DNA of 33,799 nucleotides from Gluconobacter vitians (GTDB lineage Bacteria > Pseudomonadota > Alphaproteobacteria > Acetobacterales > Acetobacteraceae): NCBI RefSeq assembly GCF_015244565.1, contig NZ_JABCQG010000021.1:1-33799 (forward strand), given 5' to 3'. Both the position numbers and the translations under genes were made by a program. The notes beneath the pieces are model-generated. The model had not been told where the DNA came from. It saw only the letters and a program-made list of their open reading frames with translations, and did no database searches. Shown piece by piece: positions 3,855 through 33,799 of this stretch; position 1 is the stretch's first letter, and each line of letters starts with the position of its first letter.

Positions 3855-3861
3855 AGCAACG

Positions 3862-3891
3862 ACGGCTCCCTCATATCGAGGGAGCCGTTTT
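3862..3891 (+). terminator. Rho-independent terminator of the TonB-dependent receptor gene
   Basis: A perfect 11-bp stem (3862-3872 with 3878-3888, ACGGCTCCCTC/GAGGGAGCCGT) has a 5-nt ATATC loop and ends in TTTT. It begins seven bases after the receptor stop codon. It sits between convergent genes, and the opposite strand lacks a good T-run, so it serves mainly the plus strand. Confidence 0.9.
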
Positions 3892-3896
3892 CGGTC

Positions 3897-19309: not shown

Positions 19310-21067
19310 CTACCCCACGCGGCTGGTCAGGGGAGGATCCTCTCCCACAGACGCCAAGCCCGCTTTCAGATCCTCGCCCACGATCCGCGCGCAGAGCGCG
19401 AGTGAGAGCGCACCTGCATCGGGATGTCCCTTGCTGCGCTCGCCATGCATTTTCGCACGGCCCATCCGTGGGAGCAGATCACGCGTGGCCTGCGCCGCTT
19501 CATGAGACGCTTCCGCCCCGATCCGCCAGGACTCCACAAGCCCGTGCCCGGCGGCCAGAGCCTCTTCCATTGTCTCGACGAACGGCACCAGCGCATCGAC
19601 GAGCGTCTTGTCGCCGGGCTTTGCACGGCCAAGCTCCATGATGCGCTCCATGCTGTTCCGCGCACCGCCTGAAAGCTGCTGTGCATCGGGCAGGCTGTTG
19701 TCATCGAAGGCCAGACTGAATGCCCGCAACCCTTCGCCCCAGAGCGCACCGGATGTTCCCCCGGCCCGGTCCGCCCAGGCATCCGCCGCAGAAGCCAGCA
19801 CCGTCGCAGGCCCCGCACCGGCATCCGCCGCAGCCCGTGCCACTTTCGCCGCCGCCGCAGAGCCACGCGCCATGCCCTGACCATGATCCCCGTCGCCCGC
19901 TACGGCATCAATATGCCCGAGATCGGACTCCACCTCTGCCAGCGTTTTTGCCAGATGGTCCATCACGGCCGCCACACATGCCCCGCCCCGGCGCCCCTGT
20001 GCCGTCCCGGAGCGCATGTACAGAACCTCCGTCTCCTCCGGCACTTCAAGCCGCGTGATCCCGTCTCCGGCTAGCAGACCGTGGCTCAGCGCAGCAGATT
20101 GCACAGGCGCACGCCAGTACTGCTCCAGATCCTCATCCAGCCAGGTCAGTGTCAGCGAACAGCCCGCCATATCAAGGCTCGTGACATATTCGCCCACCAG
20201 AGGCGCCACGAGCGTCAGACCTGCCTTTTCGAACATTGGAACCAGCCGGTCCCAAAGAACAAACAGTTCTTCCTGCTTGGTGCTGCCCAGACCGTTCAGC
20301 AGAACCGCCACCCGGCGCGACGCCCCTTCCGGAAGCTCGGCCAGCAGGCGGTCGATCAGGAGATGCGCCAGATGCTCCGGATCCGGAACATCCTGCTCGT
20401 CAATGCCCGGCTCGCCATGCACGCCCAGCCCGAGCGCCATGCGGTTCTTCGGAACTTCGAACAGCTTTTCCTTCTCGCCCGGAAGCGTGCAGCCATCGAA
20501 CGCCACACCAAACGTGCAGGTCTGCCGGTTCACCCGCTGCGCAACTTCCTCGACTTCATCGAGCGTCAGCCCCGCTTCGGCCGCAGCGCCTACGATCCGG
20601 AAAATTACCAGATCACCGGCAATTCCGCGCCGCTTCTCCCGTGTGGAGGCATCCGAGCTGGCCACATCATCCGCTGTCGCCAGAACGCGGACGTCGTAGC
20701 CCTCTTCGCGCAGGCGGTCCGCCGCGATCCCGAAATTGAGTACATCCCCGGCATAGTTGCCGTAACCGAGAACGATCCCGCCTCCCAGATCGGCCTGACG
20801 CGCAATGCTCTTTATGGCCTGCGTGGAGGGCGAGGCGAAGATATCCCCCGCCACTGCCGCATCGCCAAAGCCCGGTCCGACATAGCCCGCAAAGGCCGGA
20901 TAATGTCCCGAGCCGCCGCCGAGGACGACGGCAACCTTGCCGCGACGGCCCGGCGTGGCCCGAAGCACACCGCCGCGCACGTGGCGTACGAGATCGGGAT
21001 GGAGAAGGCTGAACCCCCGGAGGGCGGACGCTGCGAAAGTCGATGCGTCACCGCAGATCTTGGTCAT
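19310..21067 (-). CDS. Two-domain dihydroxyacetone/erythrulose kinase (DhaK-DhaL fusion)
   Basis: This 585-residue ATP-dependent ketose kinase has an N-terminal DhaK domain (VVLGGGSGHYPAFAGYVGPG, GNYAGDVLNFG, and GVHGEPGIDE with the His that binds the ketone covalently) and a C-terminal DhaL ATP domain (VAGDGDHGQGMARG Mg-binding Asp cluster, GGTSGALWG, and SKGHPDAGA). Known relatives phosphorylate dihydroxyacetone or, in some actinobacteria, D- or L-erythrulose (DerK/LerK). As the last gene after an erythritol-type operon and a sugar importer, I infer an L-erythrulose kinase giving L-erythrulose-1-phosphate. Dihydroxyacetone kinase is the main alternative. GGAGACG precedes ATG 21067. Confidence 0.88.
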   Translation of the reverse strand: MTKICGDASTFAASALRGFSLLHPDLVRHVRGGVLRATPGRRGKVAVVLGGGSGHYPAFAGYVGPGFGDAAVAGDIFASPSTQAIKSIARQADLGGGIVLGYGNYAGDVLNFGIAADRLREEGYDVRVLATADDVASSDASTREKRRGIAGDLVIFRIVGAAAEAGLTLDEVEEVAQRVNRQTCTFGVAFDGCTLPGEKEKLFEVPKNRMALGLGVHGEPGIDEQDVPDPEHLAHLLIDRLLAELPEGASRRVAVLLNGLGSTKQEELFVLWDRLVPMFEKAGLTLVAPLVGEYVTSLDMAGCSLTLTWLDEDLEQYWRAPVQSAALSHGLLAGDGITRLEVPEETEVLYMRSGTAQGRRGGACVAAVMDHLAKTLAEVESDLGHIDAVAGDGDHGQGMARGSAAAAKVARAAADAGAGPATVLASAADAWADRAGGTSGALWGEGLRAFSLAFDDNSLPDAQQLSGGARNSMERIMELGRAKPGDKTLVDALVPFVETMEEALAAGHGLVESWRIGAEASHEAAQATRDLLPRMGRAKMHGERSKGHPDAGALSLALCARIVGEDLKAGLASVGEDPPLTSRVG

Positions 21068-21088: not shown

Positions 21089-22111
21089 TCAGACGGCATC
21101 ACGGTTGAGGTAGCGGCGGGCCAGCGCATCGAAGGAAATCGCCAGCACGACGATCCCTCCACTGACGACCGACTGCCAGTACGGCGAGATGCCAAACAGA
21201 ACGATGATGTCTTCGATGATGCCGATGATGACGGCGCCCAGAACCGCGCCGATCGGGCTGCCAATGCCACCTGTCGTCGCCACGCCACCAATGACAGCCG
21301 CGGCAATCGGCCCCAGCACCCAGGTGTCACCGATGGAAGGCTGGGCCGTGCCCAGACGCGCCACCATCAGGATGCCCGCCAGCGCCGAAAGGAAACCGGC
21401 CAGCGCGAACGCGCCCATGCGGATTGCATTGACCCGGATCCCCAGCATCCGCGCTGCATCGGGATTGCTGCCAATGGCGTAGATGTAACGCCCGACCGGT
21501 GTGCGCAGCATGACGAACGCCACGATTGCCAGACAGACCAGCAGCACCAGGAACGGCACCGGCACGCCCATCACAAGCCCGCGGCCCAGGAACGTGATGT
21601 CCCGCGGCACACCCGTGATCGCAACACCCTTGGTCGCCACCAGATTTGCGCCGCCATACACGCCGGCCATGCCGATCGTCAGCACCAGCGAATGCAGACG
21701 GAGCTGTGTGATCAGCGCGCCGTTCAGCAGGCCGCACGCCCCACCCATCAGCAGGCACAGCCCCAGCGACAGCCAGGGATTGAGCCCGAGCTGCACCATG
21801 AGGATGCCGCCCACCACGCCCGCAAGCCCGCCAATCGCACCGACGGACAGATCAAGCTCGCCGAGGATCATCAGGATGGACTGGCCGATCGTGACCAGCC
21901 CGATAAAGGCCAGTGCCCGGGCGATGATGACCATGTTGAAGGTCGTCAGAAAATGCGGCGAAAGCGCACAGGACGCGCCGAAAATAATGACAAGCGCCGC
22001 CACGACCCCACCCAGCGGATTGACGGCCAGACGGGAGATGAGCGCCTTGAACGGCGGCAGTTTCGGCGGCTGCTGTGAGGGCGCTGCCGGAACAGTGGTT
22101 TCAAGCGACAT
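21089..22111 (-). CDS. Ribose-type ABC transporter permease
   Basis: This 340-residue inner-membrane protein of the RbsC/BPD_transp_2 family has about 8-10 helices, with the conserved blocks ILMILGELDLSVGAIGGLAG, GRYIYAIGSNPDAARMLGI and VIGGVATTGGIGSPIGAVLG. I use ATG 22111 (MSLETTVPAA), preceded by GGAGAA; the longer frame from 22147 lacks support. It overlaps the ATPase gene by 11 bp, so the two are translationally coupled. It probably imports erythritol or L-erythrulose, by context. Confidence 0.9.
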   Translation of the reverse strand: MSLETTVPAAPSQQPPKLPPFKALISRLAVNPLGGVVAALVIIFGASCALSPHFLTTFNMVIIARALAFIGLVTIGQSILMILGELDLSVGAIGGLAGVVGGILMVQLGLNPWLSLGLCLLMGGACGLLNGALITQLRLHSLVLTIGMAGVYGGANLVATKGVAITGVPRDITFLGRGLVMGVPVPFLVLLVCLAIVAFVMLRTPVGRYIYAIGSNPDAARMLGIRVNAIRMGAFALAGFLSALAGILMVARLGTAQPSIGDTWVLGPIAAAVIGGVATTGGIGSPIGAVLGAVIIGIIEDIIVLFGISPYWQSVVSGGIVVLAISFDALARRYLNRDAV

Positions 22112-23606
22112 GACGGTTCTCCGGGGCGCCGATAATCGCGCCGACAAGCGTGTTGACGTCAGTAGTGGCCTGATCGAACGATCCCGTGATCCGGCCGGAA
22201 TACATGGTGATGATCCGCGAAGCGCAGCGCTGGAGCTCGGTCATTTCGGACGAGACGAGAATGATCCCCACGCCCTCTTCCGCGAGTTGCTGTATGATGC
22301 GATAGATCTGGAACTTCGTACCGATATCGATGCCCTTGGTCGGCTCGTCGAAAATCAGCACCCGCGGCCGCCGCGCCATTGCCCGGCCGATGATGGCCTT
22401 CTGCTGGTTTCCGCCCGACAGATGCGCGATTTTCTTGCCAGCCGAGGATGTCCGCACATCGAACTGACGGATCGTATCAGCCACGACCTCGTTCTCACGT
22501 GCCGAGGAAATGATCCCCCCGCGTTTCATGCGGTCCAGAACCGAGAGGCTGATATTCTCCCGCACACTCAGGAGCGGGAAAATGCCGTGATGCTTGCGCT
22601 CTTCGGACAGGTAAACCATGCCCAGAGCCACGGCCCGGTCAGTGCGGCCCTTCGGGATTTCTTCACCTTCGAGGAAGGCATGACCCCCCGTCGAGCGCAG
22701 ATATCCGAAGATCGTCTGCATCAGCTCCGAACGACCAGCGCCCACTAGCCCCGCAAAGCCGAGGATTTCCCCGCGCCGCAGAACAAAGGATGCATCCGAG
22801 AAACCCGGTCCCGACATATCTTTAACGCTCAAGATGACGTCAGATTCAGTCGCAACCACGCGCGGCTGGAACTTCTCCTCAAGCGGCACCGAACTGCCCG
22901 ACATCAGCCGGATCAGCTGATCTTCCGTCATCTCCCGCATCGGATAGGTGCCCACACTGCGGCCATTGCGCAGCACCGTCACCGTATCGCCCAGCGCAAA
23001 GATTTCTTCCATCTTGTGCGACACGAACACGATTGCGCAGCCATCGTCGCGCAGCGTGCGGATGATGCGGAACAGATGCTCCGTCTCGTTCGCCGTCAGC
23101 GAAGACGTTGGCTCGTCCAGGATCAGTACCTTGAACTCTTCGCGGCACGCTGCCCGTGCAATCTGCAGAAGCTGCTGGTCCGGCACGCTGATCCGGTTCA
23201 CGAACTGCCCCGGCTTCGCATGAATGCCGAACCGCTTGATCAGCTCCGCAGCCGCCTTTTCCATGGCCCGGCGCGACACCGTCAGATGCCCGAAGCCGGA
23301 GCGGTTGAACGGCATGAACATGTTCTCGGCCACCGTCATCGGCCCGAACAGGTTCAGCTCCTGCGGCACATATGCGACCTTCTCGAACAGTGTCCGGTCA
23401 TGCAGCGCATCCCGCCCTTCGATCAGGACAGCCCCCTCATCCGGCACGACCAACCCAGTCAGCGTCTTGATGAGCGTGGACTTTCCAGCACCATTTTCCC
23501 CGGCGAGAATATGGATCTTCCCCGGCTCCAGCGTCAGATCGACATGATCAAGCGCCACCACGCCGGGATAGGTCTTCCGAACGGCTTCAATCTGAAGAAC
23601 TGTCAT
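22101..23606 (-). CDS. Ribose-type ABC transporter ATP-binding protein (two ABC domains)
   Basis: This 501-residue RbsA/XylG-like ATPase has two fused nucleotide-binding domains. Domain 1 has Walker A GENGAGKST (~36-44) and Walker B VLILDEPTSSLT. Domain 2 has a degenerate Walker A (GLVGAGRSELMQ), the signature LSGGNQQKAIIGRAMA and Walker B VLIFDEPTKGIDIG. An A-loop Tyr region (VRKTYPGVVALDHV) is at the N-terminus. It powers the permease downstream and lies 25 bp after the binding-protein gene. One domain is typically catalytically weak in this family. Confidence 0.93.
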   Translation of the reverse strand: MTVLQIEAVRKTYPGVVALDHVDLTLEPGKIHILAGENGAGKSTLIKTLTGLVVPDEGAVLIEGRDALHDRTLFEKVAYVPQELNLFGPMTVAENMFMPFNRSGFGHLTVSRRAMEKAAAELIKRFGIHAKPGQFVNRISVPDQQLLQIARAACREEFKVLILDEPTSSLTANETEHLFRIIRTLRDDGCAIVFVSHKMEEIFALGDTVTVLRNGRSVGTYPMREMTEDQLIRLMSGSSVPLEEKFQPRVVATESDVILSVKDMSGPGFSDASFVLRRGEILGFAGLVGAGRSELMQTIFGYLRSTGGHAFLEGEEIPKGRTDRAVALGMVYLSEERKHHGIFPLLSVRENISLSVLDRMKRGGIISSARENEVVADTIRQFDVRTSSAGKKIAHLSGGNQQKAIIGRAMARRPRVLIFDEPTKGIDIGTKFQIYRIIQQLAEEGVGIILVSSEMTELQRCASRIITMYSGRITGSFDQATTDVNTLVGAIIGAPENRHVA

Positions 23607-23631: not shown

Positions 23632-24573
23632 TCAGAGGCTCTTGGCCGTCAGAAGATCAATGCCGGTATCGATGTATTTGGGCGTCTTCTGCCCCATCGC
23701 CCGCTGCCAGGCCGACACGACAGCCCAGTAGCCCTGCATTTCCGGACGGCTGGACGCAGAGGATTCAGCAACGCCCTCCTTGATGAGCTGGATCATGTCG
23801 TTGAGGTTATCGAGCCCCACTTCCTTGACCTTACCCGTCTTGCCGCCTTCACGAATGGCCTGCCCCACGCCGACCGGGCCAGACGCATCACACTCGACCC
23901 ACCCGACCAGATCCGGATGCGCCTGCATGATGGCGGATGCCTGCTTCTGCGCGGTCTCGATGCTGTCATTGTCCACGCCGGTCGCGACGACCTTCATGTC
24001 CGGGTATTTGGCAAAGACCTTCTTTTCGCACTCGGCCCGCAGCGTATGGTTCGGCGCCGTCGGCACCCCCATCATGATTGCCACTTCGCCCTTTTTGCCC
24101 ACAAGGTTTGCCAGCCGCTCGGCCGCCATTGTCCCCTGCTCGCAGAAATCCGCGCCCACTGCGGTGATGTCCATGCCTTCGGGCGGCAGGGAATCAAACA
24201 CCGTCATGGGGATCTTCTCGTCCACCGCTTCGTCCATCGTCGCGCGGTTGCCCTTCTCGTCCAGCAGATCGAGGATCAGCCCGTCCGGATGGGTCGCAAT
24301 GGCACGCTCGATGATGTCGTTCTGGGACGACACATCCGCCGTCTGCGGCGCGCGGTATTCGATCTCAACCTTGCGGCCCGTCGTCTGCGAAATCATCGCC
24401 GCAGCCGCCTGCGCCCCGTTATTCGCCTTGTCGAACCAAGGATGCACGGTCTTGGGGATCAGCACGAACCGCAGAGGTGCGCTGCTATCCGCCGCATGGG
24501 CCTGACCTGCCGCCAGCGGCGTCAGAAATGGCGCAGCCGTCAGCATTGCGGCAAAAGCAAATGCCGTTTTCAT
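23632..24573 (-). CDS. Periplasmic sugar/polyol-binding protein (ribose type)
   Basis: This 313-residue periplasmic-binding protein of the Peripla_BP_4/RbsB family has the signal peptide MKTAFAFAAMLTAAPFLTPL...GQAHA. Ligand-pocket blocks follow: IPKTVHPWFDKANNGAQAAA, HPDGLILDLLDE, MGVPTAPNHTLRAECEKKV, and LVGWVECDASGPVGVGQAIR. It captures the ligand for the ABC importer encoded directly downstream. By operon context this is probably erythritol or L-erythrulose rather than ribose, since the neighbours are EryA/EryB-like and no ribokinase is present. Confidence 0.9.
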   Translation of the reverse strand: MKTAFAFAAMLTAAPFLTPLAAGQAHAADSSAPLRFVLIPKTVHPWFDKANNGAQAAAAMISQTTGRKVEIEYRAPQTADVSSQNDIIERAIATHPDGLILDLLDEKGNRATMDEAVDEKIPMTVFDSLPPEGMDITAVGADFCEQGTMAAERLANLVGKKGEVAIMMGVPTAPNHTLRAECEKKVFAKYPDMKVVATGVDNDSIETAQKQASAIMQAHPDLVGWVECDASGPVGVGQAIREGGKTGKVKEVGLDNLNDMIQLIKEGVAESSASSRPEMQGYWAVVSAWQRAMGQKTPKYIDTGIDLLTAKSL

Positions 24574-24627: not shown

Positions 24628-25110
24628 TCAGCAACTTGCGCCGACAGGGCTCTGCTGGCGGTATTTCTTTCCTAGTGCATCAATACCCGCGACATTCTTT
24701 GCCGAAGCACTGCGTGGATCGAACGTGCAGGCCAGCCAGGCTTCGGCAATGGATTTCGCGACTTCCGGCCCGATGACACGAGATCCCATCGTGATGATAT
24801 GGGCGTTGTTCGACAGCGCTGCCCGCTCGGCGGAATATGTGTCGTGAGTGAGTGCGGCGCGGATGCCAGGAATTTTGTTGGCGGAAATGCACACGCCAAT
24901 CCCCGTCCCGCAGCACAGGATACCCCGGTCAAAATCTCCATGCAGAACCGCCAGCGCCACACGCTCGCTCAGTTCCGAATACAGTTCCACACGATCTTCA
25001 TCAGGCTGGGACATGTCGATGACAACATGGCGCCCGAGCGTCGAGAGATGCTGAACCAGAAGCCGTGCCAGACCTTCGCCGGCACTGTCTCCACCAATCG
25101 CAATACGCAT
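24628..25110 (-). CDS. RpiB-family sugar-phosphate isomerase (EryI-like)
   Basis: This 160-residue RpiB/LacAB isomerase has its catalytic Cys in [20 protein letters not shown], with the [20 protein letters not shown] block and [20 protein letters not shown]. RpiB normally interconverts ribose- and ribulose-5-phosphate. In erythritol loci the homologue EryI isomerises D-erythrulose-4-phosphate to D-erythrose-4-phosphate, which is the role I infer here. ATG 25110 has GGAG seven bases upstream. It lies 85 bp after the tpi-like gene; that gap holds a 7-bp hairpin (CTGTTCC/GGAACAG). Confidence 0.88.
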
Positions 25111-25195: not shown

Positions 25196-26023
25196 TCACG
25201 CCGCGATTTTGCGGGAAACCAGTTCGCTCACACTGCCCACCAGCTTCATGAAATCCGCTGGTTCCCAGGCGGCGCGCCCGACAAACACACCGTCCACATC
25301 GGGCAGTGCGACGTAATCGCGGATATTCGCCTGAGAAACGCTGCCGCCATAAAGCAGCGGGATCCGCACGCCACTCTCAGCCACCATGTCACGCACGACA
25401 GCCCGCAGCTTTGTGTGAATTTCGGATACGAACGGCGCTTCGGCCGGACGCCCCGCCAAGCCGATGGCCCAGACAGGCTCATACGCAATCAGCACGCGCC
25501 CGAGATCCTTCTGGGACACGCCATGCAGCGCAATTTTCGTCTGACGTGCCAGCGTCTCCTGCGAGACCCCGAAGTCGAATTCATCAGACGTGTCACCAAT
25601 GCAGATCAGCGGCCGCAGCCCATGCCGGAGCGCCGCATGAACCTTCCGGTTCACCGTCCAGTCCGTCTCGCCAAAATGCTGCCGGCGCTCCGAATGGCCG
25701 ATCTCCACGATGGAGGCTCCGCATTCGGCAATCATCGGCGCGGAGACTTCCCCGGTCCAGGCGCCGCTATCCTCCCAGTGCATGTTCTGCGCGCCCACCA
25801 TCAGCGCACTGTCTTCCAGCACCGAACACACATCCCGCAGGGACGTGAAGGGCGGGATCACAAATGACTGGATCCCTTCGGGCGGCTGGAAAGACTCAAG
25901 AGCCCTGGCCGCCGCAATGGCTTCGGCCGGTCCCTTGTTCATCTTCCAGCTTGTCCCGATCCAGACAGTCTTCTGATCCACAACCGACCTCCCGAAAGAC
26001 TGCCCAACTGGCTGAATGCTCAT
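25196..26023 (-). CDS. Triosephosphate isomerase homologue (EryH/TpiA2-like)
   Basis: This 275-residue TIM-barrel protein has the classic catalytic residues: Lys in GTSWKMN (~24-30), His in EIGHSERRQHFGET, and Glu in IAYEPVWAIG (~170s), with loop-7/8 motifs PLLYGGSVSQANIRDY and VDGVFVGRAAWEP. In erythritol loci the TpiA2 paralogue (EryH, or LerI by function) converts L-erythrulose-1-phosphate to D-erythrulose-4-phosphate, the four-carbon analogue of the TIM reaction, and I infer that here. Unlike housekeeping TpiA it carries an N-terminal extension (MSIQPVGQSFGRSVVDQ). ATG 26023 has GGGAGAA upstream. It starts the second half of the locus behind a 121-bp gap with palindromic operators. Confidence 0.88.
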   Translation of the reverse strand: MSIQPVGQSFGRSVVDQKTVWIGTSWKMNKGPAEAIAAARALESFQPPEGIQSFVIPPFTSLRDVCSVLEDSALMVGAQNMHWEDSGAWTGEVSAPMIAECGASIVEIGHSERRQHFGETDWTVNRKVHAALRHGLRPLICIGDTSDEFDFGVSQETLARQTKIALHGVSQKDLGRVLIAYEPVWAIGLAGRPAEAPFVSEIHTKLRAVVRDMVAESGVRIPLLYGGSVSQANIRDYVALPDVDGVFVGRAAWEPADFMKLVGSVSELVSRKIAA

Positions 26024-26144: not shown

Positions 26145-27137
26145 TCAGGCTGCCCGCTCCAGCAGGACAGCTTCCGTCACCACACTGTCGATCTCCACAT
26201 CGCGCCCGGCGACCAGTCCGCGTTTACCCATTTTCTCATGATAGAGATGGGTCGCTTCCATGGGTGACAGCGCGCCATCCGTTACGCTGCGCATGGCTTC
26301 GATCAGCAGGACGGGATCATCCGCATCCACGATCTTGCGGCCAAACAGCGCAGCACGGGCCCCGCAGCACTGGGCCTGATGCAGAAGTTCCAGACAGTCG
26401 CGGGTCGTGCCGCTTCCGCCGCCCATGATGCCCACGATCACTGATGGGTCGAACTCGCAGAGCTCCGTCAGTGCTTCCGCGCCATTGAACGGAACCTTGA
26501 GGAAAACCGGCCGCTCTTCACGCCGAAGCCCGGCCAGACAGCGGACGATCATGTCATTGAGGAAAAAGCCTTGATCCGCGTGGGAAATCCGCCCTTCATT
26601 GGGATTGAAAACCTCAAGGAAATAGGAAAAACGCCGCTCTGCCGCTTCCTCGCGAAAGCTTGCGAATTCTTCAAGCGCCAGACTATCCTGATCGGCATCG
26701 CCGTTGAACGTCATGGAGTACAGGCCGAGATTGGTCTGTGCCTTTTTCAGGGACGCCGAACGGAATGGAACTGATTTCTGGGTCTGATAATTGCTGCCCC
26801 GACCGCGCCACAGATCGGTCGTGTCATTGGCGCGGATCGCCGACTGGATGCGCGTGCCTTCAAAAGCATCCTCGTGAACCAGCGTCTCCAGAATTGACGC
26901 CGAAGTCAGCATGATGTCCACGGTATCCTGACTGAGGATCGTCCTGATCACATCGACATATTCCCGCCGCGTGCGGAAACGGGACCGCTTGTCCTGTACA
27001 GGCGACGGATGACGCTGCAGACCCGTGGCGCTGATCCCGGCGGCCATGTCGGAATCCTTGGCATCCGCAAGAATGAAGTCGGTCCGGCTGTCCTGACCGG
27101 AGACCATGCGGGCAATCTTTTCTTCATAACGGTTCAT
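26145..27137 (-). CDS. Class I aldolase-like TIM-barrel protein of the erythritol locus
   Basis: This 330-residue cytoplasmic protein has no signal peptide. The C-terminal half resembles the DeoC/LacD/FbaB class I aldolase group: PVFLKVPFNGAEALTEL has a candidate Schiff-base Lys, IVGIMGGGSGTTRDCLELL is a phosphate-loop-like glycine motif, and RAALFGRKIVDADDPVLLIE matches the GRNI..DDP block of those aldolases. The N-terminal block (DFILADAKDSDMAAGISATG) contains DAKDSDMA. It starts 3 bp after the EryB-like gene and so is cotranscribed with eryA and eryB. It occupies the place where a tetrulose-phosphate racemase (EryC) is expected, but EryC belongs to a different TIM-barrel family. An aldolase or epimerase acting on a tetrulose phosphate is my inference; the exact reaction is unknown. 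Confidence 0.72.
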   Translation of the reverse strand: MNRYEEKIARMVSGQDSRTDFILADAKDSDMAAGISATGLQRHPSPVQDKRSRFRTRREYVDVIRTILSQDTVDIMLTSASILETLVHEDAFEGTRIQSAIRANDTTDLWRGRGSNYQTQKSVPFRSASLKKAQTNLGLYSMTFNGDADQDSLALEEFASFREEAAERRFSYFLEVFNPNEGRISHADQGFFLNDMIVRCLAGLRREERPVFLKVPFNGAEALTELCEFDPSVIVGIMGGGSGTTRDCLELLHQAQCCGARAALFGRKIVDADDPVLLIEAMRSVTDGALSPMEATHLYHEKMGKRGLVAGRDVEIDSVVTEAVLLERAA

Positions 27138-27140
27138 GGT

Positions 27141-28850
27141 TCATGCCCTCAGGGCTGGATGTGAAAATGATGCTGCTGGCAGTTCACCCTTCAGCTGATG
27201 ACGGTCCTGCCCTTCCTTCCAGGTCTGCTGGCATTGCTGTTCCGTCTCCTGCGCATTCCAGCCGAGCGCCTCTCCGACGATGTTCCCCGCTTCGCGCACG
27301 ACGTCCGGCGTCAGAAGGCCGCTCAGGGCAATCGGCGTGCGACGGAACAGGACATCCGACAGCGTCCGCACCAGTTCATCCGTAGCGATGAATGCCAGTT
27401 CACGGCGCGTATAGGTGGGCAGACTGCGCAGCGGCGCATCCGGCTGCTCCTGACAGAACACCGCAAAGGCCCGCGCGCGGGAGCCGTACCGCTCCAGCAG
27501 CGCCGCCGCTCTGGTGCGCGGGAGACCATATGTGACGAAGAACTCGTCTAGATAGGAGGAATATCGTTGTGGCTGGGGGTAGTCTCGACCGCCACCGATC
27601 GGGAAATCCCGCGTGGACAGACGCCGCTCTATACTCAGCATGTCCAGCACCCTGTCTGCGGTTTCTTCCGCCAGACCACGGAATGTGGTCCATTTTCCAC
27701 CGACCAGAGACAGGAGCGGCGTGTCGCCCACAATATCTTCATGAATGATATGGTCGCGACTGATGGCGCCCGGATCGGCCGCATCGGTCGCAGGCAGTGG
27801 CCGCACGCCGCTATAGCGGTAGATCACATCGTCTGCGCCAAACCGGAATCCCGGAAACAGGCTGCCAAGCATACGCAGCATGTAGTCCTGTTCGTCATCC
27901 GTGCAGACGGCACTGTCAGGATCATCAATCCGCAGATCGGTCGATCCGACAAGCACATGATCATAGAACGGATAGGCCAGACAGATGCGTCCATCCGGCG
28001 TTCCGAAATACATCATGCGGCCATTCAGTTCCCGCAGAAGCCCTTCATGGCGCAGGAGAAGATGGCTGCCTTTCGTTCCGCCGATATAATGGGTCGGATG
28101 ACCCAGAACGCTGTTGATCCGATCAATCCACGCGCCCCCGGCATTGACGATGATCCGCGGGCGGACGTGGCGCGTCTCGCCGCTTCTTTCATCCCGGAGA
28201 GCCAGAACCCCATCCGTAAAGGACAGCGGCACCGTATAGGTCGAAACGGCACAATCCGTCCCCACATCAAGACCGTCGCGCACGCATTCATAGCCGAGAC
28301 GTTCGGGCTGGGTGATGGCGGCATCATAATACTGCGCCGTCGCCATGACATCCGCCGCCATATGCGGCCATTCCTCGTGCGTCCTGCGTTTGAGGAACAG
28401 GCTGTGACGGGGCATCACACGGGCCCGGCGCCCAAGAAAATCATAGATCTGGAGACCAGCTTCCAGAACGAGCGCGCCTCGGTCGGTCATTTTGCCGCCC
28501 AGCCCCAGAAACTTCCGGAACGAAGGAATGATACCGCCGAACCAGGACCGGATCGGCAGAACGGTTGGCAGCGGCTTGACCACATGCGGTGCATTACGCA
28601 GCAGCAGGTTCCGCTCCAGCGTGGACTGCGCCACGAGCCGAAATTCGCCGGTCTCAAGATATTTGATACCACCGTGAATCAGACGAGATGGTGCGCATGA
28701 CGCACCGGAGCAGAAGTCACCCCGATCCACCAGAAGAACGCGCAGCCCCTGCAGGGTCAGTTCGCGGAACAGGCCTGCCCCGTTGATCCCGGCCCCGATG
28801 ATCGCAACGTCGAAGGCCGCATTATCCGTGATGCCAGCAAGTCCGTTCAT
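27141..28850 (-). CDS. eryB: FAD-dependent polyol-phosphate dehydrogenase (EryB/GlpD-like)
   Basis: This 569-residue GlpD-family flavoprotein has an N-terminal dinucleotide motif (DVAIIGAGINGAGLFRELTL, ~13-32) followed by LVDRGDFCSGASCAPSRLIH and GGIKYLETGEFRLVAQSTLE. PFYDHVLVGSTD and the SGVRPLP block are central catalytic and FAD motifs, and the C-terminal helical domain is DAO_C-like. Glycerol-3-phosphate dehydrogenase GlpD is the housekeeping relative. Here the four-base overlap (ATGA) with an EryA-like kinase gene points to erythritol-4-phosphate dehydrogenase, giving a 3-keto tetrulose phosphate with electrons passed to quinone. GlpD function remains an alternative. Confidence 0.82.
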   Translation of the reverse strand: MNGLAGITDNAAFDVAIIGAGINGAGLFRELTLQGLRVLLVDRGDFCSGASCAPSRLIHGGIKYLETGEFRLVAQSTLERNLLLRNAPHVVKPLPTVLPIRSWFGGIIPSFRKFLGLGGKMTDRGALVLEAGLQIYDFLGRRARVMPRHSLFLKRRTHEEWPHMAADVMATAQYYDAAITQPERLGYECVRDGLDVGTDCAVSTYTVPLSFTDGVLALRDERSGETRHVRPRIIVNAGGAWIDRINSVLGHPTHYIGGTKGSHLLLRHEGLLRELNGRMMYFGTPDGRICLAYPFYDHVLVGSTDLRIDDPDSAVCTDDEQDYMLRMLGSLFPGFRFGADDVIYRYSGVRPLPATDAADPGAISRDHIIHEDIVGDTPLLSLVGGKWTTFRGLAEETADRVLDMLSIERRLSTRDFPIGGGRDYPQPQRYSSYLDEFFVTYGLPRTRAAALLERYGSRARAFAVFCQEQPDAPLRSLPTYTRRELAFIATDELVRTLSDVLFRRTPIALSGLLTPDVVREAGNIVGEALGWNAQETEQQCQQTWKEGQDRHQLKGELPAASFSHPALRA

Positions 28851-30451
28851 GGCCGGGCTTCCTGCGGAATAAAGCCGATTGCAGCATAGTTCAGGACAAC
28901 ACCTGTCTCCACGGCAACTGGCTCCGGAACAGGCTCGACCTGCGTTGTTCCACCGTCATAAAGGTCCGACCAGAAGGGCCGCATGGCTTGGGTCAGGGCG
29001 ACGTAACGCCGATAGATCCCTTCATAAATACGACGCCGTTCGGTCTGGGGCGTGTAAATCTGCATCGGAATGGTCTGGGCGGAAACGGCTTCCTCCAGAT
29101 CGGCATAATGTCCGATCGCGACACTGGCCGTCAGGGCAGCGCCAAGCGCACCCGCTTCCCGCACTTCCGGGATTTCAACATCCGAGCCCAGAATATCAGC
29201 AAACATCTGGGCGATCACAGGCTGCCCGCTGCCGCCACCGGACACGCCAATCCTGCGGACCGGCCCCGTCTGACGCAGTGCATCGACATGTTCGCGATGA
29301 TTGAAGATCGTGCCTTCCACCATCGCCTGGAACAGGTCCGCGCGATCATGCCAGGACTGGACCCCGAACAGCGAAGCGCTGGCTGGCACTTCATAAGGCG
29401 AGCCAAACAAGAATGGATGATACAGCGGAACCTGATGACGCCCGCCCGGCTTCGAAAGACGGCTTTCCATTTCCGCCGAAAGCTGGCGGGCCGCGTCCTG
29501 TTCCTCGGGCTTCAGAAGTTTCGCCAGCCATTCGAGATTGCTGGAGGACGCAGGTGAAATGGCCATGCAATTCCACAGGCCGCGGCGATATCCGGCGCGA
29601 CAGGCCCAACCCTCTCCGATAACCGGCCGATCGCGGAACACTTCATTGATCGAGAATGTTCCGGCCGTGATGGAAAGATCATCGGCCTGCGTATATCCCA
29701 TCCCGACTGCCGCAGCCGTAACATCATGCAGCCCGACTGAAACGGGCGTCCCAGCTTTCAGGCCGGTCAGGGCTGCGGCCTCGGCTGTCAGGCTGCCACC
29801 GCTTTCGCAGGACAGCCGCATTTCCGGCAACGCCCGACGGATGCCCTGCAACCCCAGGATTTCCAGCAGTTCGTCGCTGTAATCCTGTGTATGCAGATCC
29901 GTGAAAGACGTACTGGCTTCCGTCAGGTCCGTCGCGATCTCACCCGTCAGACAGTAGCGGATCCAGTCCTTGGCAAAGATGACAGACCCGATTGCTGCAT
30001 AACGCTCCGGCTCGTTCTCACGGATCCAGGCCAGAAGCGTATTGGCCGAATAGGCATAGGGGCGCTGCCCTGCCACCGGGAGAACTAGATCTGATATCCC
30101 ATCGCGCTGCCACCGCTCGTGCAGCACAGTGGCACGGCTGTCGAGCGACATGATCCCTCGGCCTAGAGGTTTACTTGAGCGGTCAAGCAGAAAAACACCA
30201 TCTCCGTGTGCGGTCAGGCCAATTGCGGCAATATCCGAACCGTCAAGCCCGGCATCTGCCAATGCATCCTGAACCGACCCCGTTACAGCCTCCCAGGCCT
30301 CGTGCATGTCCCGCTCAACATGGTGAGGCCGGTCCATATGCTGCGCAACACGGCGACGCCCCGTCCCCATGATCGCACCGGTCGGCGAAAACACGACGGC
30401 TTTCGTCGTCGTGGAACCACTGTCGATCCCAATGGTGAAATCCTGGCGCAT
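28847..30451 (-). CDS. eryA: FGGY-family polyol kinase (EryA-like erythritol kinase)
   Basis: This 534-residue sugar kinase has the N-terminal FGGY phosphate motif (FTIGIDSGSTTTKAVVFSPT), GLTAHGDGVFLLD around the catalytic pocket, and VSVGLHDVTAAAVGMGYTQA. The C-terminal adenosine motif is GVSGGGSGQPVIAQMFADIL and EVREAGALGAALTASVAIG. It phosphorylates a polyol with ATP; erythritol is inferred from the partners EryB, TpiA-like and RpiB-like. Xylulose or glycerol kinase is less likely. It is the first gene of the operon, with a strong GGAGGG Shine-Dalgarno seven bases before ATG 30451. The upstream region carries a palindromic operator. Confidence 0.82.
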   Translation of the reverse strand: MRQDFTIGIDSGSTTTKAVVFSPTGAIMGTGRRRVAQHMDRPHHVERDMHEAWEAVTGSVQDALADAGLDGSDIAAIGLTAHGDGVFLLDRSSKPLGRGIMSLDSRATVLHERWQRDGISDLVLPVAGQRPYAYSANTLLAWIRENEPERYAAIGSVIFAKDWIRYCLTGEIATDLTEASTSFTDLHTQDYSDELLEILGLQGIRRALPEMRLSCESGGSLTAEAAALTGLKAGTPVSVGLHDVTAAAVGMGYTQADDLSITAGTFSINEVFRDRPVIGEGWACRAGYRRGLWNCMAISPASSSNLEWLAKLLKPEEQDAARQLSAEMESRLSKPGGRHQVPLYHPFLFGSPYEVPASASLFGVQSWHDRADLFQAMVEGTIFNHREHVDALRQTGPVRRIGVSGGGSGQPVIAQMFADILGSDVEIPEVREAGALGAALTASVAIGHYADLEEAVSAQTIPMQIYTPQTERRRIYEGIYRRYVALTQAMRPFWSDLYDGGTTQVEPVPEPVAVETGVVLNYAAIGFIPQEARP

Positions 30452-30470
30452 CGAACACCCTCCAGACGGC

Positions 30471-30555
30471 GTGACTGATCATCAAGCGATCACAACGATG
30501 AGCACCCATAACATCTATTATGAGATTATGAACACATTTATCTGTGATTTATCAC
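30471..30555 (-). promoter_or_regulatory. Putative operator region of the eryA promoter
   Basis: GTGAT-TT-ATCAC at 30544-30555 is a perfect short palindrome. A second GTGA...TCAC dyad spans 30471-30493 with TGATCA inside it. Repeated GTGA/TCAC half-sites ~20-100 bp upstream of eryA suggest a DeoR/SorC (EryD-like) or CRP-type regulator. No regulator gene lies nearby in the window. Confidence 0.4.
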
Positions 30556-30920
30556 GATTTAATGTGACATATATCGTCAGATTGGACGGGCCGTTGTCTG
30601 GAAAAGCACAAGACGAAAACAGAACATTTTCCAGATGACCATTGGAAATATCAGTCGGCTCAGGACCTGTTGATTTAATTAAGGAAATCTAATTCAGGTT
30701 CTGCAATGAAACTGAAAACGAAACGGTTTGCGGTGGTGCGACAAAAGGTGGTGAATACAAAGCTGCATATACTCCTCTGGATAGTCTTTTTGCAGCACAA
30801 TAAGTGCTGGCAGACCGAAGTTATGCGGAAATTCAAGCGCCTCAACCGCACCGAAATCATGTTCTAAAAACTCAAGACTGATGACATTTCACAACACGCT
30901 ATAACCGCTATCCCCGAACG
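30556..30920. other. Gene-poor spacer upstream of eryA
   Basis: No convincing gene is seen. Short open frames on both strands (for example 30675-30860 minus, ending near 30675) have no recognisable domain, weak codon bias and no Shine-Dalgarno. The stretch around 30660-30870 (GGACCTGTTGATT then a low-quality frame with MRKFKRLNR) faintly recalls a decayed IS, but I cannot support an assignment. Confidence 0.4.
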
Positions 30921-30921
30921 C

Positions 30922-30958
30922 AAAACCCCCGCTTGGTCTCTGACCGAGCGGGGTTTTT
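30922..30958 (-). terminator. Strong bidirectional-looking terminator next to a tRNA end
   Basis: A 12-bp stem (CCCCGCTTGGTC at 30927-30938 with GACCGAGCGGGG at 30942-30953, one T-G wobble) is flanked by A-runs on the left and T-runs on the right, so either strand could terminate here. On the minus strand it follows a tRNA-like 3' end by six bases. That is the arrangement expected after an rRNA operon or tRNA gene. Confidence 0.85.
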
Positions 30959-30964
30959 CGAAGA

Positions 30965-30978
30965 TGGTTGCGGGGGCA
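30965..30978 (-). other. 3' end of an initiator tRNA (tRNA-fMet), possible att remnant
   Basis: The minus strand reads TGCCCCCGCAACCA, which equals the 3' end with CCA of alphaproteobacterial tRNA-fMet as I recall it. The terminator follows directly downstream. Sequence further upstream does not form a tRNA: there is no CGCGGGG acceptor arm and no T-arm. A GCTCATAA motif, like the fMet anticodon loop, lies 36 bases from the end, versus 38 in a real tRNA. So this is either a 3'-end duplication left by an integrating element or a decayed tRNA copy. Confidence 0.5.
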
Positions 30979-31729
30979 CACAACCAAAGAAAACTGCGCA
31001 TTATGAGCGGTTTCGTGAAGAATATTACGGCATGATATAGTCGATTGACAAACCGTTGTTTTTATCAAAATTTTGTTTCGACATAACCTTTGTAACCTAT
31101 TCCACAGCAATACCCGGATATGGAGGGTACGTAATGTCCCATTATGCGCTCCCACGCCAATACGCTTACGTTCATAAAGCGCCTACCACCATATCGCAAA
31201 AGCTCACTCGCTTGGTGATCTAGAAAATTCGACTCCTCTATCTAAAGGTTTCCACCCCAGGTTTTGATCACACATATTCTCTCCTCCGATGATCCGTCTT
31301 TCGTCGAACCCATCAAGCAGAAGCCGTCTCGTATAATTTTAAATAAATAATTATTGAATTATTACAAAATAATTCATGAAGAACTATATTTTTTATTATA
31401 TGTAAATTTATACTAATCATAAATACTCACTAAGTATATTTTTTTATTTCAACAGCTTCAAAATTATGCTTGGTTCTATGAAAATTTTATTTATCAGAAC
31501 CAGAAATCTAATCGCAGAAGGAATCGTTCCAACTATACTTTATTATTTTGACATCAGATCGTTCTGCAATATAGTCTCTACACATAATGTAACGATACTC
31601 CATCAGTGCCGGTGGAGAGTCGGGTTTGTCCGGCTAGGACAGAAACGCATGGAGTGGATCAATGGCGGTCCACTGGCGCCAAATGGGCGATGACACATTC
31701 TTGTTTGATGTGTCGTCTGGAAATGTATT
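30979..31729. other. AT-rich gene-poor stretch, possible island DNA
   Basis: Base composition drops far below the neighbours, with long A/T runs at 31330-31460. That segment holds a perfect inverted repeat, TGAATTATT (31355-31363) and AATAATTCA (31368-31376), around ACAA. The open frames here are short and unrecognised; one at 31466-31693 (plus) lacks similarity I can name. I see no tRNA, CRISPR or known ncRNA. The composition suggests recently acquired or decayed DNA. Confidence 0.5.
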
Positions 31730-31860
31730 GTGGACAGGGGTTTCCTGAAAGCCGGGCACGCACCGACCCTGCTGGCCGCTTTTCTATATTTCGACGTCTC
31801 ATTCATGATCTGGGTTTTGCTGGGTCCTCTCGGCATTGCGATCGCGCATGACCTGAACCT
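31730..31860 (+). pseudogene. NarK-type nitrate/nitrite transporter, 5' fragment cut by IS5
   Basis: From GTG 31730 the frame reads a nitrate/nitrite MFS N-terminus ([20 protein letters not shown], then [10 protein letters not shown]) for ~44 residues. It then enters the IS at 31861 and ends in non-homologous IS sequence at 31924. The rest of the ~400-residue transporter is missing. What follows the IS on the other side is an unrelated gene, so this is a deletion or recombination scar, not a simple insertion. GGA eight bases upstream may be the Shine-Dalgarno. Confidence 0.7.
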
Positions 31861-33151
31861 GGAGGGATCGAAGAACTGTTTGTTGATGCGCTTGTCTGAT
31901 GATTTTAGTTTTTTGGCGCTTTGATTGAGGGTTTCCGGGGTGACTTTCGCTCTGCGTTTTGAGCAGATCACGGTCCATCGCCAGTGGGAGGACTACGCGC
32001 TCGCGTTCAATCTTTCGAGGAAGAGGAAGCGGCGCATATTATAGACGATATTGGCAAGGCCGATCCTCATGGTGGCCCGGGTGATACCGACAGTTCGGAC
32101 GAACAGACCCATTTGCGATTTCTGATCGGCAAAGACATGCTCGACACGAGATCGGATCACCGACTTTCCAGCATTCGATTTCTGGATATGCCGGGGCATA
32201 GGTTTGAGATGCGGCTTTTTCCTGTGAACCTTCGAGACAAAGCCCTGCTTGTCCATGAAGTCCTCATTGGCTTTGGAGCGATACGCCGTGTCAGCCCAGA
32301 CGCTTGAGGCCGTATTGGTTTTATCCAGAAGGCCCTCGCGCAGTCTGGCACCATCACTGGCAGCAGCATCCGTTGTCTTCCATTTCCGGATGAACCGGAA
32401 CTTCCGGTCGATGGAAACATGGGACTTGTAGCCAAAGAACGGAATGGCGAGGTCCGTGGCTGGGATCGTCCCGTCATCCTGACGCTTCGCTTTGGTAAAC
32501 TTCAGTGTCCAGCGCGCATGACGGTCCTTATGCGACAGCTTTGCGGGTTTGTCCTGCCAATCTTCAGGAATACGCCCTGCCCGGAGGTCAGCTTTCTCAG
32601 CGTTCGTATTGCGCTGCTTTGGGGCGGCTACCAATGTCGCATCCAGGATCTGGCCGGACATTGGCAGATAACCGGCGGTCCGCAGAGTGGCATCAAACCG
32701 GTCAAACAGTCTTTCAATAGCTCCCGCCTGGGCCAGACGCTCACGGAACAGCCAGACCGTTTTGGCATCAGGTACCCGGTCCGACAGTCCCAGACCGAGG
32801 AAACGCATGAAGGACAGGCGGTCGTTGATCAGATATTCCGTTCGCTCGTCGGAGAGATTGTTCAGCGTCTGGATCACCAGAATCTTGAACATCAACACGG
32901 GATCAAACGGCGGTCGTCCACCTTTGCTCCCATCTGAATAGGCCAGAGCCTTCTCCAGATCAGGGCGGAACACCTCAAAATCCACAGTCCGGGAAAATGC
33001 CTCAAGCTGATCGCCAAGCCCGCTTAACCGGGCCAGCCGCTCTTCAACATCAAAGAAACCAGGCCGCTTCATCTGCCATCATCCCCAATCAACGCAGGAG
33101 AGATGGAATCACAGAGGAACCCTCAAATCCAGAAGGTTTTTCGAACCCTCC
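31861..33151 (-). mobile_element. IS5-group insertion sequence, complete (~1.29 kb)
   Basis: The element is bounded by imperfect inverted repeats GGAGGGATCGAAGAAC at 31861-31876 and the reverse complement of GGAGGGTTCGAAAAAC at 33136-33151. These follow the pattern of IS5 termini. It contains one full-length transposase on the minus strand. Flanks are ACCT on the left and AGCT on the right, so there is no matching 4-bp target duplication. The flanking genes also do not match each other. Both facts point to recombination between IS copies or an adjacent deletion. Confidence 0.82.
31993..33072 (-). CDS. IS5-family transposase
   Basis: This 359-residue DDE transposase has the N-terminal DUF772 region (GRPPFDPVLMFKILVIQTLN, LSDERTEYLINDRLSFMRFL) and the first acidic motif (GQILDATLVAAPKQRN). 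The second Asp lies in SSVWADTAYRSKANEDFM, and the catalytic Glu region is SVIRSRVEHVFADQKSQMGL. It looks intact with no frameshift, so the element may be active. The C-terminal motif NIVYNMRRFLFLERL is typical of the group. Confidence 0.92.
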   Translation of the reverse strand: MKRPGFFDVEERLARLSGLGDQLEAFSRTVDFEVFRPDLEKALAYSDGSKGGRPPFDPVLMFKILVIQTLNNLSDERTEYLINDRLSFMRFLGLGLSDRVPDAKTVWLFRERLAQAGAIERLFDRFDATLRTAGYLPMSGQILDATLVAAPKQRNTNAEKADLRAGRIPEDWQDKPAKLSHKDRHARWTLKFTKAKRQDDGTIPATDLAIPFFGYKSHVSIDRKFRFIRKWKTTDAAASDGARLREGLLDKTNTASSVWADTAYRSKANEDFMDKQGFVSKVHRKKPHLKPMPRHIQKSNAGKSVIRSRVEHVFADQKSQMGLFVRTVGITRATMRIGLANIVYNMRRFLFLERLNASA

Positions 33152-33153
33152 AG

Positions 33154-33393
33154 CTTCAGGTGATGCAAACCCAGTGGGGTAATTGCTCACCAGGTGGCAC
33201 CGTCACGCTGAACCCACATTTGGTCAAAGCCCCGCGTGACTGCATTGATTACGTGATCCTGCATGAACTGTGCCATCTGAAGGAGCACAATCATGGTCCG
33301 GCCTTCTGGTCCCTTCTGGAACGTGTCATGCCGGATTGGGAGCGCCATAAGGCAAGACTGGACGGAATGGCGGAAATGATGCTGCAAAAATAG
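33154..33393 (+). pseudogene. YgjP/DUF45-type metallopeptidase, 3' fragment
   Basis: About 79 C-terminal residues of a SprT/YgjP-like zinc metallopeptidase remain: QTQWGNCSPGGTVTLNPHLV, then YVILHELCHLKEHNHGPAFW with the HExxH zinc motif intact, then the C-terminus PDWERHKARLDGMAEMMLQK. The open frame begins at 33103 inside the IS, but homology starts at the IS edge, so the N-terminal half is missing. A fused product starting in the IS is possible but probably inactive. The stop is TAG at 33391-33393. Confidence 0.75.
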
Positions 33394-33622
33394 CTCTATT
33401 TGACTGCCATGAGGGGGAAAGCGGAGTGTCCGCTATCGGAGAGATACTGGAGAAAAACTGACAGTAATGCATTCGCACTGAGCGAAGCCTCAACAGCCAC
33501 TTTCTCCGTAGAACAAAATCCATTTAACAGGGAGCGAACGCATCTATTCATAGAGTTCGTCGGAAAATAAATCTTATCTACGGACAGCTCTGAGGCTGGC
33601 TGCAGCCTGCGAGTACCGTCTA
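33394..33622. other. Non-coding spacer between YgjP fragment and next IS
   Basis: I see no gene. Short frames on either strand are unrecognised. The sequence is lower in GC than the chromosome average here and may contain decayed mobile-element DNA. Confidence 0.4.
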
Positions 33623-33799
33623 GGGCCTGTTAGCACTTGAAACACTTCCCATATTATAGGGATGGAAGAAGGAGACGGAACAGGCACTTTTACGGACGAG
33701 ACATGGGCGATCTGGGAACCTCTGATTGAAGCGGTTCGCCCAAGGGGCAAGACGCCGCCCCATGATCTGCGGCGTACGATAGCAGCAATTTTCTGGCGC
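33623..33799 (+). mobile_element. IS5-family (IS427-like) element, left end, cut by window edge
   Basis: The presumed left terminus GGGCCTGTTAGCAC begins at 33623, right after CTA, consistent with a TA-type target. A transposase frame opens 39 bp inside. The other end lies beyond the window, so the boundary cannot be confirmed. Confidence 0.6.
33662..33799 (+). CDS. IS5-family transposase N-terminus (DUF4096 type, partial)
   Basis: 46 codons run open to the window edge. FTDETWAIWEPLIEAVRPRG and HDLRRTIAAIFWR match the N-terminal DUF4096 domain of IS5/IS427-type OrfA proteins (FTDxxWxxIxPLLP... LRRxxxAIxWR pattern). OrfA and OrfB of such elements are usually joined by frameshifting; OrfB is outside the window. 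Confidence 0.75.
   Translation, partial: MEEGDGTGTFTDETWAIWEPLIEAVRPRGKTPPHDLRRTIAAIFWR

Follow-up and report, generated by a model that had tools for sequence, protein, structure and literature searches.

What does the third gene of an apparent erythritol operon do in Gluconobacter vitians, where the racemase gene eryC would be expected? The gene lies in a stretch of 33,799 nucleotides (contig NZ_JABCQG010000021.1), here called the window. The preliminary description read the locus as a Brucella-type erythritol operon with EryA, EryB and both isomerases in place, in which an aldolase-like protein either replaces EryC or splits the C4 unit. The analysis presented here indicates that the protein, designated P0001, probably splits a C4 sugar phosphate, giving a three-carbon intermediate of glycolysis, instead of standing in for the racemase.

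The operon and its relationship to ery genes

The window contains nine genes in the same direction, all on the minus strand. The first encodes an FGGY-family kinase (28847..30451, 534 residues, assigned by Pfam) and the second a GlpD-like FAD oxidase or dehydrogenase (27141..28850, 569 residues, Pfam DAO/DAO_C). The third encodes P0001 (26145..27137), and is followed by genes for a TpiA-like protein (25196..26023) and an RpiB-like protein of the EryI/DerI (D-erythrulose-4-phosphate isomerase) type (24628..25110). Three genes then encode a sugar ABC transporter, comprising the periplasmic binding protein (23632..24573), the ATP-binding protein (22101..23606) and the permease (21089..22147), all recognised by both Pfam and NCBIfam, and the last gene encodes a dihydroxyacetone (DHA)-type kinase with Dak1 and Dak2 domains (19310..21067). 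The kinase and oxidase genes overlap by 4 bases, and only 3 bases separate the oxidase gene from that of the aldolase, which fits a single operon. The gene for P0001 is confirmed as an open reading frame of 330 codons, carrying the motifs FLKVPF at residue 212, MGGGSGTT at 238 and GRKIVDADDP at 266. Promoter and terminator scans gave scores no better than those for shuffled sequence. No regulator was recognised in the upstream region (30452-33799) with the reference set used; species of the frateurii group have a divergent DeoR gene there. An IS5-family transposase gene is found upstream of the operon (31993-33072).

Orthologues of P0001 are present in 15 other Gluconobacter genomes, and are 73-94% identical. 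In G. oxydans 621H, GOX2217 is a TPI, GOX2218 an RpiB-like protein and GOX2222 a DHA kinase (PMC6191907). GOX2216, entered as hypothetical (PMC2241609), is therefore the likely counterpart of P0001, gene order rather than sequence being the ground for this. There is no study of the P0001/GOX2216 gene among the literature matches listed, most subscription journals lying outside the search.

The kinase and oxidase had been taken to be EryA and EryB, and this part of the preliminary description has to be given up. The window kinase is 28% identical to EryA of the Shinella ery operon and 44-45% identical to a different group of FGGY kinases. Similarly, the oxidase is 29% identical to Shinella EryB and 50-51% identical to a different oxidase group; in the oxidase tree, a branch with 100/100 support separates the window oxidase from EryB, which groups with GlpD. 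By sequence comparison, then, the two proteins are not orthologues of EryA and EryB, and the pathway is therefore not a Brucella-type one that merely lacks EryC. In Rhizobium tumorigenes (L033, L037) and Shinella zoogloeoides (L035) these better matches form a second kinase/oxidase pair, alongside an ery-type operon. The Shinella EryA, EryB and EryC were named from the content and order of their operon, which agree with the published description of the ery genes (PMC3599248); the records themselves carry the labels FGGY kinase, glycerol-3-phosphate dehydrogenase and TIM barrel protein, and no ery names. It is worth adding that an eryB-like gene in L011 was read as glpD, because it is sited in a glycerol operon with an MIP channel and an FGGY kinase.

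That the gene directly after the oxidase is not eryC was borne out. P0001 has no match to PF01261, and hence no sequence relationship to EryC of this kind. The Shinella EryC query found no relative in the genome (E ≤ 0.1), while matching both of two control records, and the two PF01261 proteins of the genome match EryC at chance level only (best E 0.3, in a comparison of seven sequences). A canonical EryC elsewhere in the genome, on whose absence the preliminary description depended, was not found in these searches.

The two isomerases are much as had been described. The TpiA-like protein is 48-50% identical to EryH, nearer than the housekeeping triose-phosphate isomerase (TIM) is, and branches with EryH in a tree that held one housekeeping sequence only; it also passes the general triose-phosphate isomerase model of NCBIfam (380.4 bits, cut-off 293). 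The RpiB-like protein, which is the sole PF02502 match in the genome, is 62-65% identical to EryI. It falls just under the cut-off for NF051858, the rhizobial D-erythrulose-4-phosphate isomerase model (236.5 bits, cut-off 240), and passes the general RpiB subfamily model (159 bits, cut-off 135). The operon therefore has isomerases of the EryH and EryI types, and no EryA and EryB orthologues.

Gluconobacter makes L-erythrulose from erythritol in the periplasm, and LerK of the mycobacterial tetritol route is a DHA-kinase-like enzyme. The DHA-type kinase of the window, 57% identical to the one that adjoins the second kinase/oxidase pair in Shinella, is a candidate L-erythrulose 1-kinase. Together with the ABC transporter, the EryH-type TPI and RpiB, it would provide a separate route that needs no EryC, from L-erythrulose via L-erythrulose-1-phosphate and D-erythrulose-4-phosphate to erythrose-4-phosphate. 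LerK, LerI and DerI are reported to take L-erythrulose to erythrose-4-phosphate without EryC (PMC10733421). Since the substrate of EryH could thus come from the DHA-type kinase, with no racemase involved, a replacement need not be assumed merely because EryC is absent. A gene run is found on a plasmid of Agrobacterium salinitolerans (L036, 6335-12471), consisting of transketolase, class 1 fructose-bisphosphatase, class II aldolase, DeoR, TPI and RpiB, which could process erythrose-4-phosphate via sedoheptulose bisphosphate.

Predicted fold and conserved residues of P0001

P0001 reaches no Pfam or NCBIfam cut-off, the best scores being 22.9 bits for NCBIfam (cut-off 297) and 13.5 bits for Pfam (cut-off 27). 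Among 13 diverse members of the family, the best matches were no stronger than E 0.003 for Pfam and E 2.6e-8 for NCBIfam, and neither these nor P0001 gave a Pfam match to the Aldolase_II or F_bP_aldolase domains found in OtnC types. The sub-threshold NCBIfam matches are to the ADH synthase model NF005556 (12 of the 13 members), LsrF (7) and archaeal class I fructose-bisphosphate aldolase (FBA; 2), and in P0001 the match to NF005556 starts one residue before the lysine of the FLK motif. A profile search of PDB sequences identified LsrF, at E about 5e-4 and in the C-terminal part only. Alignment with hhalign gave nothing against E. coli FbaB and YihT; against LsrF it gave a probability of 17%, and was sensible in the C-terminal part only.

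A model based on nine sequences predicts a (beta/alpha)8 barrel with moderate confidence (mean pLDDT 61.8, pTM 0.62); an earlier model from 16 close orthologues (pLDDT 52.7) was too poor for use. The best 50 of the 71 PDB matches to the model (E ≤ 0.001) are all class I aldolases of the dihydroxyacetone phosphate (DHAP) type, with a best E of 7.4e-6. They include LsrF, ADH synthase, LacD, a Slackia FBA, sulfohexulose-1-phosphate aldolase, YihT and archaeal FBA, with query TM-scores of 0.35-0.55 and rmsd values of 4-15. Six residues are invariant in all 48 aligned members of the family. In the predicted model, E175 is at the end of strand 5, K214 in strand 6, G239 and G240 after strand 7, and G266 and R267 after strand 8, and these sites at the strand ends match those of the class I aldolase superfamily. 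The lysine in strand 6 is the Schiff base of class I DHAP aldolases. K214 is thus a candidate for the Schiff base, and G239-G240 together with G266-R267 for the phosphate site. On the strength of the model, the fold class can be assigned with moderate confidence as that of a class I Schiff-base DHAP aldolase. The preliminary description had called for family and structure searches: these gave a fold class and no named family. P0001 looks like a working class I DHAP aldolase that belongs to no named sequence family of Pfam or NCBIfam.

Distribution, gene neighbourhoods and the split operon

The family is sparse. Relatives are found in 7 of 385 genomes in the class sample, 4 of 398 in the phylum sample and 17 of 150 in the family sample, these samples overlapping and each count including the genome of the window itself; G796 and G870, of the same genus, gave no match in the family sample. 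A further 46 plasmid records hold a relative, all with less than 60% identity, and among the plasmid matches listed (40 of the 46) it is called a hypothetical protein wherever a product is given. Three scans of viral contigs provided one truncated relative (L078, 375-1064), followed by long open reading frames that by eye resemble phage tail genes, as though a prophage boundary fell within the aldolase gene.

In the tree, the clade of the window gene comprises 23 rows (support 100/99), and in 21 of these the aldolase directly follows the same kinase-oxidase pair. In the other two (L097 and L098) a D-erythronate dehydrogenase (scores of 349 and 384 bits against a cut-off of 325) and a xylose-isomerase-like protein are encoded upstream of it, and a DHA-type kinase downstream. 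The xylose-isomerase-like proteins match neither the NCBIfam OtnI model nor any other at E ≤ 1e-8. In L097, the dehydrogenase and the xylose-isomerase-like domain form a single reading frame of 662 residues (2028-4016). After the DHA-type kinase of L097 there is a dehydrogenase scoring above the cut-off of the L-rhamnose 1-dehydrogenase model (415 against 400 bits), which is a misfit for a pure C4 locus. L088 has an additional dehydrogenase of the GolD/DthD family (342 bits, cut-off 286) and, further on, a nucleoside-hydrolase-like gene, which again counts against a pure C4 reading. No informative residues separate the erythronate-linked from the kinase-oxidase-linked members.

Outside this clade the neighbours are different. 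A PfkB kinase gene is next to the aldolase in 9 of the 13 loci fetched (one contig being too short), and an ADP-dependent glucokinase-like gene lies within three genes in 3 of the 13. In the further alphaproteobacterial loci L044-L049, PfkB adjoins the aldolase in all six, and a D-lyxose isomerase gene is also present in three. In L047, L048 and L049, from genomes of 1.4 Mb, the aldolase gene is found by genes for D-lyxose isomerase, two PfkB kinases, an RbsD-type protein and two FGGY-like kinases. Lichenicola has DhaK and DhaL beside the gene and yet falls outside the window clade, where the branches are long. The common theme of the loci is a kinase that makes a sugar phosphate, placed beside the aldolase.

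Within Gluconobacter, the arrangement of the operon varies. In 10 of the 15 genomes, as well as in L089-L092, the aldolase is in one operon with genes of the EryH and EryI types. The DHA-type kinase gene is within the fetched stretch in 8 of the 15, while in L003 and L006 the stretch ends before it. In the remaining five, namely G. frateurii, G. japonicus, G. sp. Gdi, G. thailandicus and G. cerinus (L010-L014), the operon is split. The first locus has, in all five, the order DeoR, kinase, oxidase, aldolase, TPI, DeoR and then other genes. RpiB is elsewhere in the genome in four of the five, and the second operons that were fetched (L111-L114) all have the order TPI, DeoR, RpiB, transporter, DHA-type kinase.

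The two TPIs of the split species differ at three positions. In the numbering of the window TPI these are S25, E107 and A252, which are shared by the EryH proteins, the TPIs of the second operons and those TPIs of unsplit operons that were examined; the EryH-like TPIs examined that have an adjoining RpiB all have this S/E/A pattern. In the split species, the TPI next to the aldolase instead carries N, then L or V, then G, as does a separate TPI copy in the other species. The housekeeping TIM of the window's own genome has N/I/S, so that the N-type pattern equals it at the first position, resembles it at the second, and at the third matches neither TIM nor EryH. The asparagine at the first position is an active-site residue in TIM. 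Among the 15 Gluconobacter genomes, only G. frateurii NBRC 3264 has no S/E/A copy and only G. morbifer no N-type copy, so that each type is present in 14. The genome of the window has a second copy of its TPI, 81% identical (G000:C14; L052, 7336-8966), with N-type residues at the three positions and a gene for a DeoR-type regulator directly downstream. Separate N-type copies occur in nine further Gluconobacter genomes, and a DeoR gene again follows them in the three of these nine that were looked at.

The residues suggest that triose phosphate is the substrate of the TPI paired with the aldolase, which would agree with a release of DHAP by the aldolase. The draft genome of G. frateurii NBRC 3264 keeps the aldolase operon and has no RpiB and no S/E/A TPI, an assembly gap being a possible reason. 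Genome-wide searches for RpiB, covering 9 of the 15 genomes, missed it only in this one, and the other six have it in the fetched operon. A synteny check for the missing second operon led to a flanking gene that belongs to a large paralogue family. In the genome as assembled, the aldolase would therefore not feed EryH and EryI, which suggests that the aldolase branch can stand without them. Against a strict rule linking residues to partners is L088, where kinase, oxidase, aldolase and DHA-type kinase come with a TPI of the S/E/A pattern, and the stretches fetched contain no RpiB. Alternatively, recombination between the two tpi copies may have split the operon by chance.

Proposed reaction, alternatives and comparison with known systems

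We propose, with moderate confidence, that P0001 belongs to an unnamed family of DHAP-handling class I (lysine Schiff-base) aldolases, and is most likely a lyase acting on a C4 3-keto-4-phosphate. A C4 polyol or acid would be phosphorylated by the FGGY kinase, and the GlpD-like oxidase would then oxidise the neighbouring carbon to give the 3-keto-4-phosphate. K214 would form an imine with the ketone, the C2-C1 side would be cut off, and DHAP would be released together with a one-carbon fragment, after which TPI would convert DHAP to glyceraldehyde-3-phosphate. We infer the catalytic residues, substrate, products and direction of this reaction from the predicted fold, the gene neighbourhoods related to C4 metabolism and the split operons of the frateurii group, all of which support the lyase reading. 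What speaks against it is that, in most of the Gluconobacter genomes and in L089-L092, the aldolase holds the EryC position in one operon with the EryH and EryI types.

There are two versions of the proposed lyase reaction, and we cannot choose firmly between them. In one the substrate would be 3-oxotetronate-4-phosphate and the second product CO2. This is a tentative possibility, which gains from the fact that the same substrate could be made by the DHA-type kinase in the erythronate loci, and that published OtnC enzymes already span two aldolase families (PMC12540250). In the other, which we find slightly less likely, tetrulose-1-phosphate would be cleaved to DHAP and formaldehyde, the reaction of EC 4.1.2.2. 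In its favour, two rhizobial loci have the kinase-oxidase pair next to ery operons, and the use of erythritol by Propionibacterium pentosaceum and S. meliloti has been suggested to involve a cleavage of this kind (PMC10733421). Formaldehyde would be expensive for the cell, and among the nine operon genes there is no recognised formaldehyde-handling gene.

Three other functions have to be weighed against the lyase reading. The aldolase could act on C5 or C6 ketose-1-phosphates, for example cleaving a pentulose-1-phosphate to DHAP and glycolaldehyde, with the operon serving the use of a pentitol or similar polyol. The PfkB, glucokinase-like and D-lyxose isomerase genes beside members outside the window clade point in this direction, and many polyols are substrates of FGGY kinases, but the window clade itself is tied mostly to genes of the EryH/EryI, DenD, DthD-like and DHA-type kinase kinds, and we regard such a function as improbable. 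More doubtful still is a fructose- or sedoheptulose-bisphosphate aldolase that joins erythrose-4-phosphate, supplied by EryI, with DHAP. The predicted class I fold is compatible with it, class II fba genes adjoin the second kinase/oxidase pair or a DeoR-TPI-RpiB run, and erythritol carbon has been reported to reach central metabolism via Tal or Fba (PMC11508834). Against it, the gene is retained in a Gluconobacter draft genome that has no RpiB, relatives of it adjoin erythronate genes, and there is no bisphosphatase among the nine genes of the operon.

The remaining alternative, and to us the least probable, is the functional replacement of EryC. P0001 would epimerise D-erythrulose-1-phosphate to L-erythrulose-1-phosphate, and the kinase-oxidase branch would join EryH and EryI and end in erythrose-4-phosphate. 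An aldolase scaffold can work as an epimerase by retro-aldol cleavage and re-addition, as in AraD. The position between the oxidase and the EryH-type TPI, the presence of an EryI-type RpiB and the fact that no EryC was found in the genome all speak for this, and a single pathway would then fit every gene of the unsplit operon. However, since the adjoining pair is not EryA and EryB, its product may be of either chirality, and the DHA-type kinase could make L-erythrulose-1-phosphate directly. Relatives of P0001 have no EryH or EryI beside them in L097, L098 and the PfkB-linked loci, and the G. frateurii draft genome has the aldolase with neither RpiB nor an EryH-type TPI. Of the two readings offered in the preliminary description, cleavage of the C4 unit is thus favoured by fold, family, neighbourhoods and split operons, and the replacement of EryC has become the less likely.

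If the lyase reading is right, an unnamed enzyme family gains a chemistry, the release of DHAP from C4 phosphates, and the catabolism of tetritols and tetronates is linked. It would also provide a candidate for the EC 4.1.2.2 reaction, which is wanted for synthetic formaldehyde assimilation (PMC10733421), and correct the view of the operon as a Brucella-type ery operon without EryC. In addition, the three-residue TPI pattern suggests a quick sequence test to distinguish C4 from C3 isomerases.

Compared with the class I DHAP aldolases LsrF, ADH synthase, archaeal FBA, LacD and sulfohexulose-1-phosphate aldolase, which are its top fold matches, P0001 has the same predicted barrel, the lysine in strand 6, and the glycine and GR motifs after strands 7 and 8. 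It differs in being below every family cut-off, in having no detectable sequence similarity in its N-terminal half, and in its gene neighbourhood. The EryA-EryB-EryC-EryH-EryI systems of Brucella and rhizobia (PMC10733421, PMC3599248) have the same order of kinase, oxidase, TIM-barrel gene, TPI and RpiB, and share the EryH and EryI types, whereas the window has a kinase and oxidase of other subfamilies, an aldolase-family gene in place of eryC, and an added DHA-type kinase. The mycobacterial LerK-LerI-DerI route from L-erythrulose to erythrose-4-phosphate (PMC10733421) likewise has a kinase and LerI- and DerI-type isomerases; the operon differs from it in having no polyol dehydrogenase and an extra kinase-oxidase-aldolase branch. 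EC 4.1.2.2 (erythrulose-1-phosphate formaldehyde-lyase) fits the predicted fold and the operon. It is described as a side activity of known aldolases (PMC10733421), and no gene for a dedicated enzyme is found among the literature matches listed.

The closest parallel to the erythronate loci is the tetronate pathway DenD/LtnD-OtnI-OtnK-OtnC (PMC12540250, PMC10580937). The aldolases of L097 and L098 are behind a D-erythronate dehydrogenase and an isomerase-like gene, and the end product, DHAP, would match; in contrast to that pathway, a DHA-type kinase and a class I aldolase stand where OtnK and OtnC are expected. The published OtnC enzymes are Aldolase_II or F_bP_aldolase proteins (PMC12540250, PMC10580937), and P0001, as an OtnC-type decarboxylase, would be a third scaffold. 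We therefore put forward, tentatively and as something short of an even chance, that the family is a third, class I scaffold for the conversion of C4 compounds to DHAP. In Gluconobacter it would act as a dedicated tetrulose-1-phosphate lyase or 3-oxotetronate-4-phosphate decarboxylase, and in the erythronate loci it would replace OtnC as the DHA-type kinase replaces OtnK, and in the frateurii group an EryH-type isomerase would have turned back towards a true TPI that serves it.
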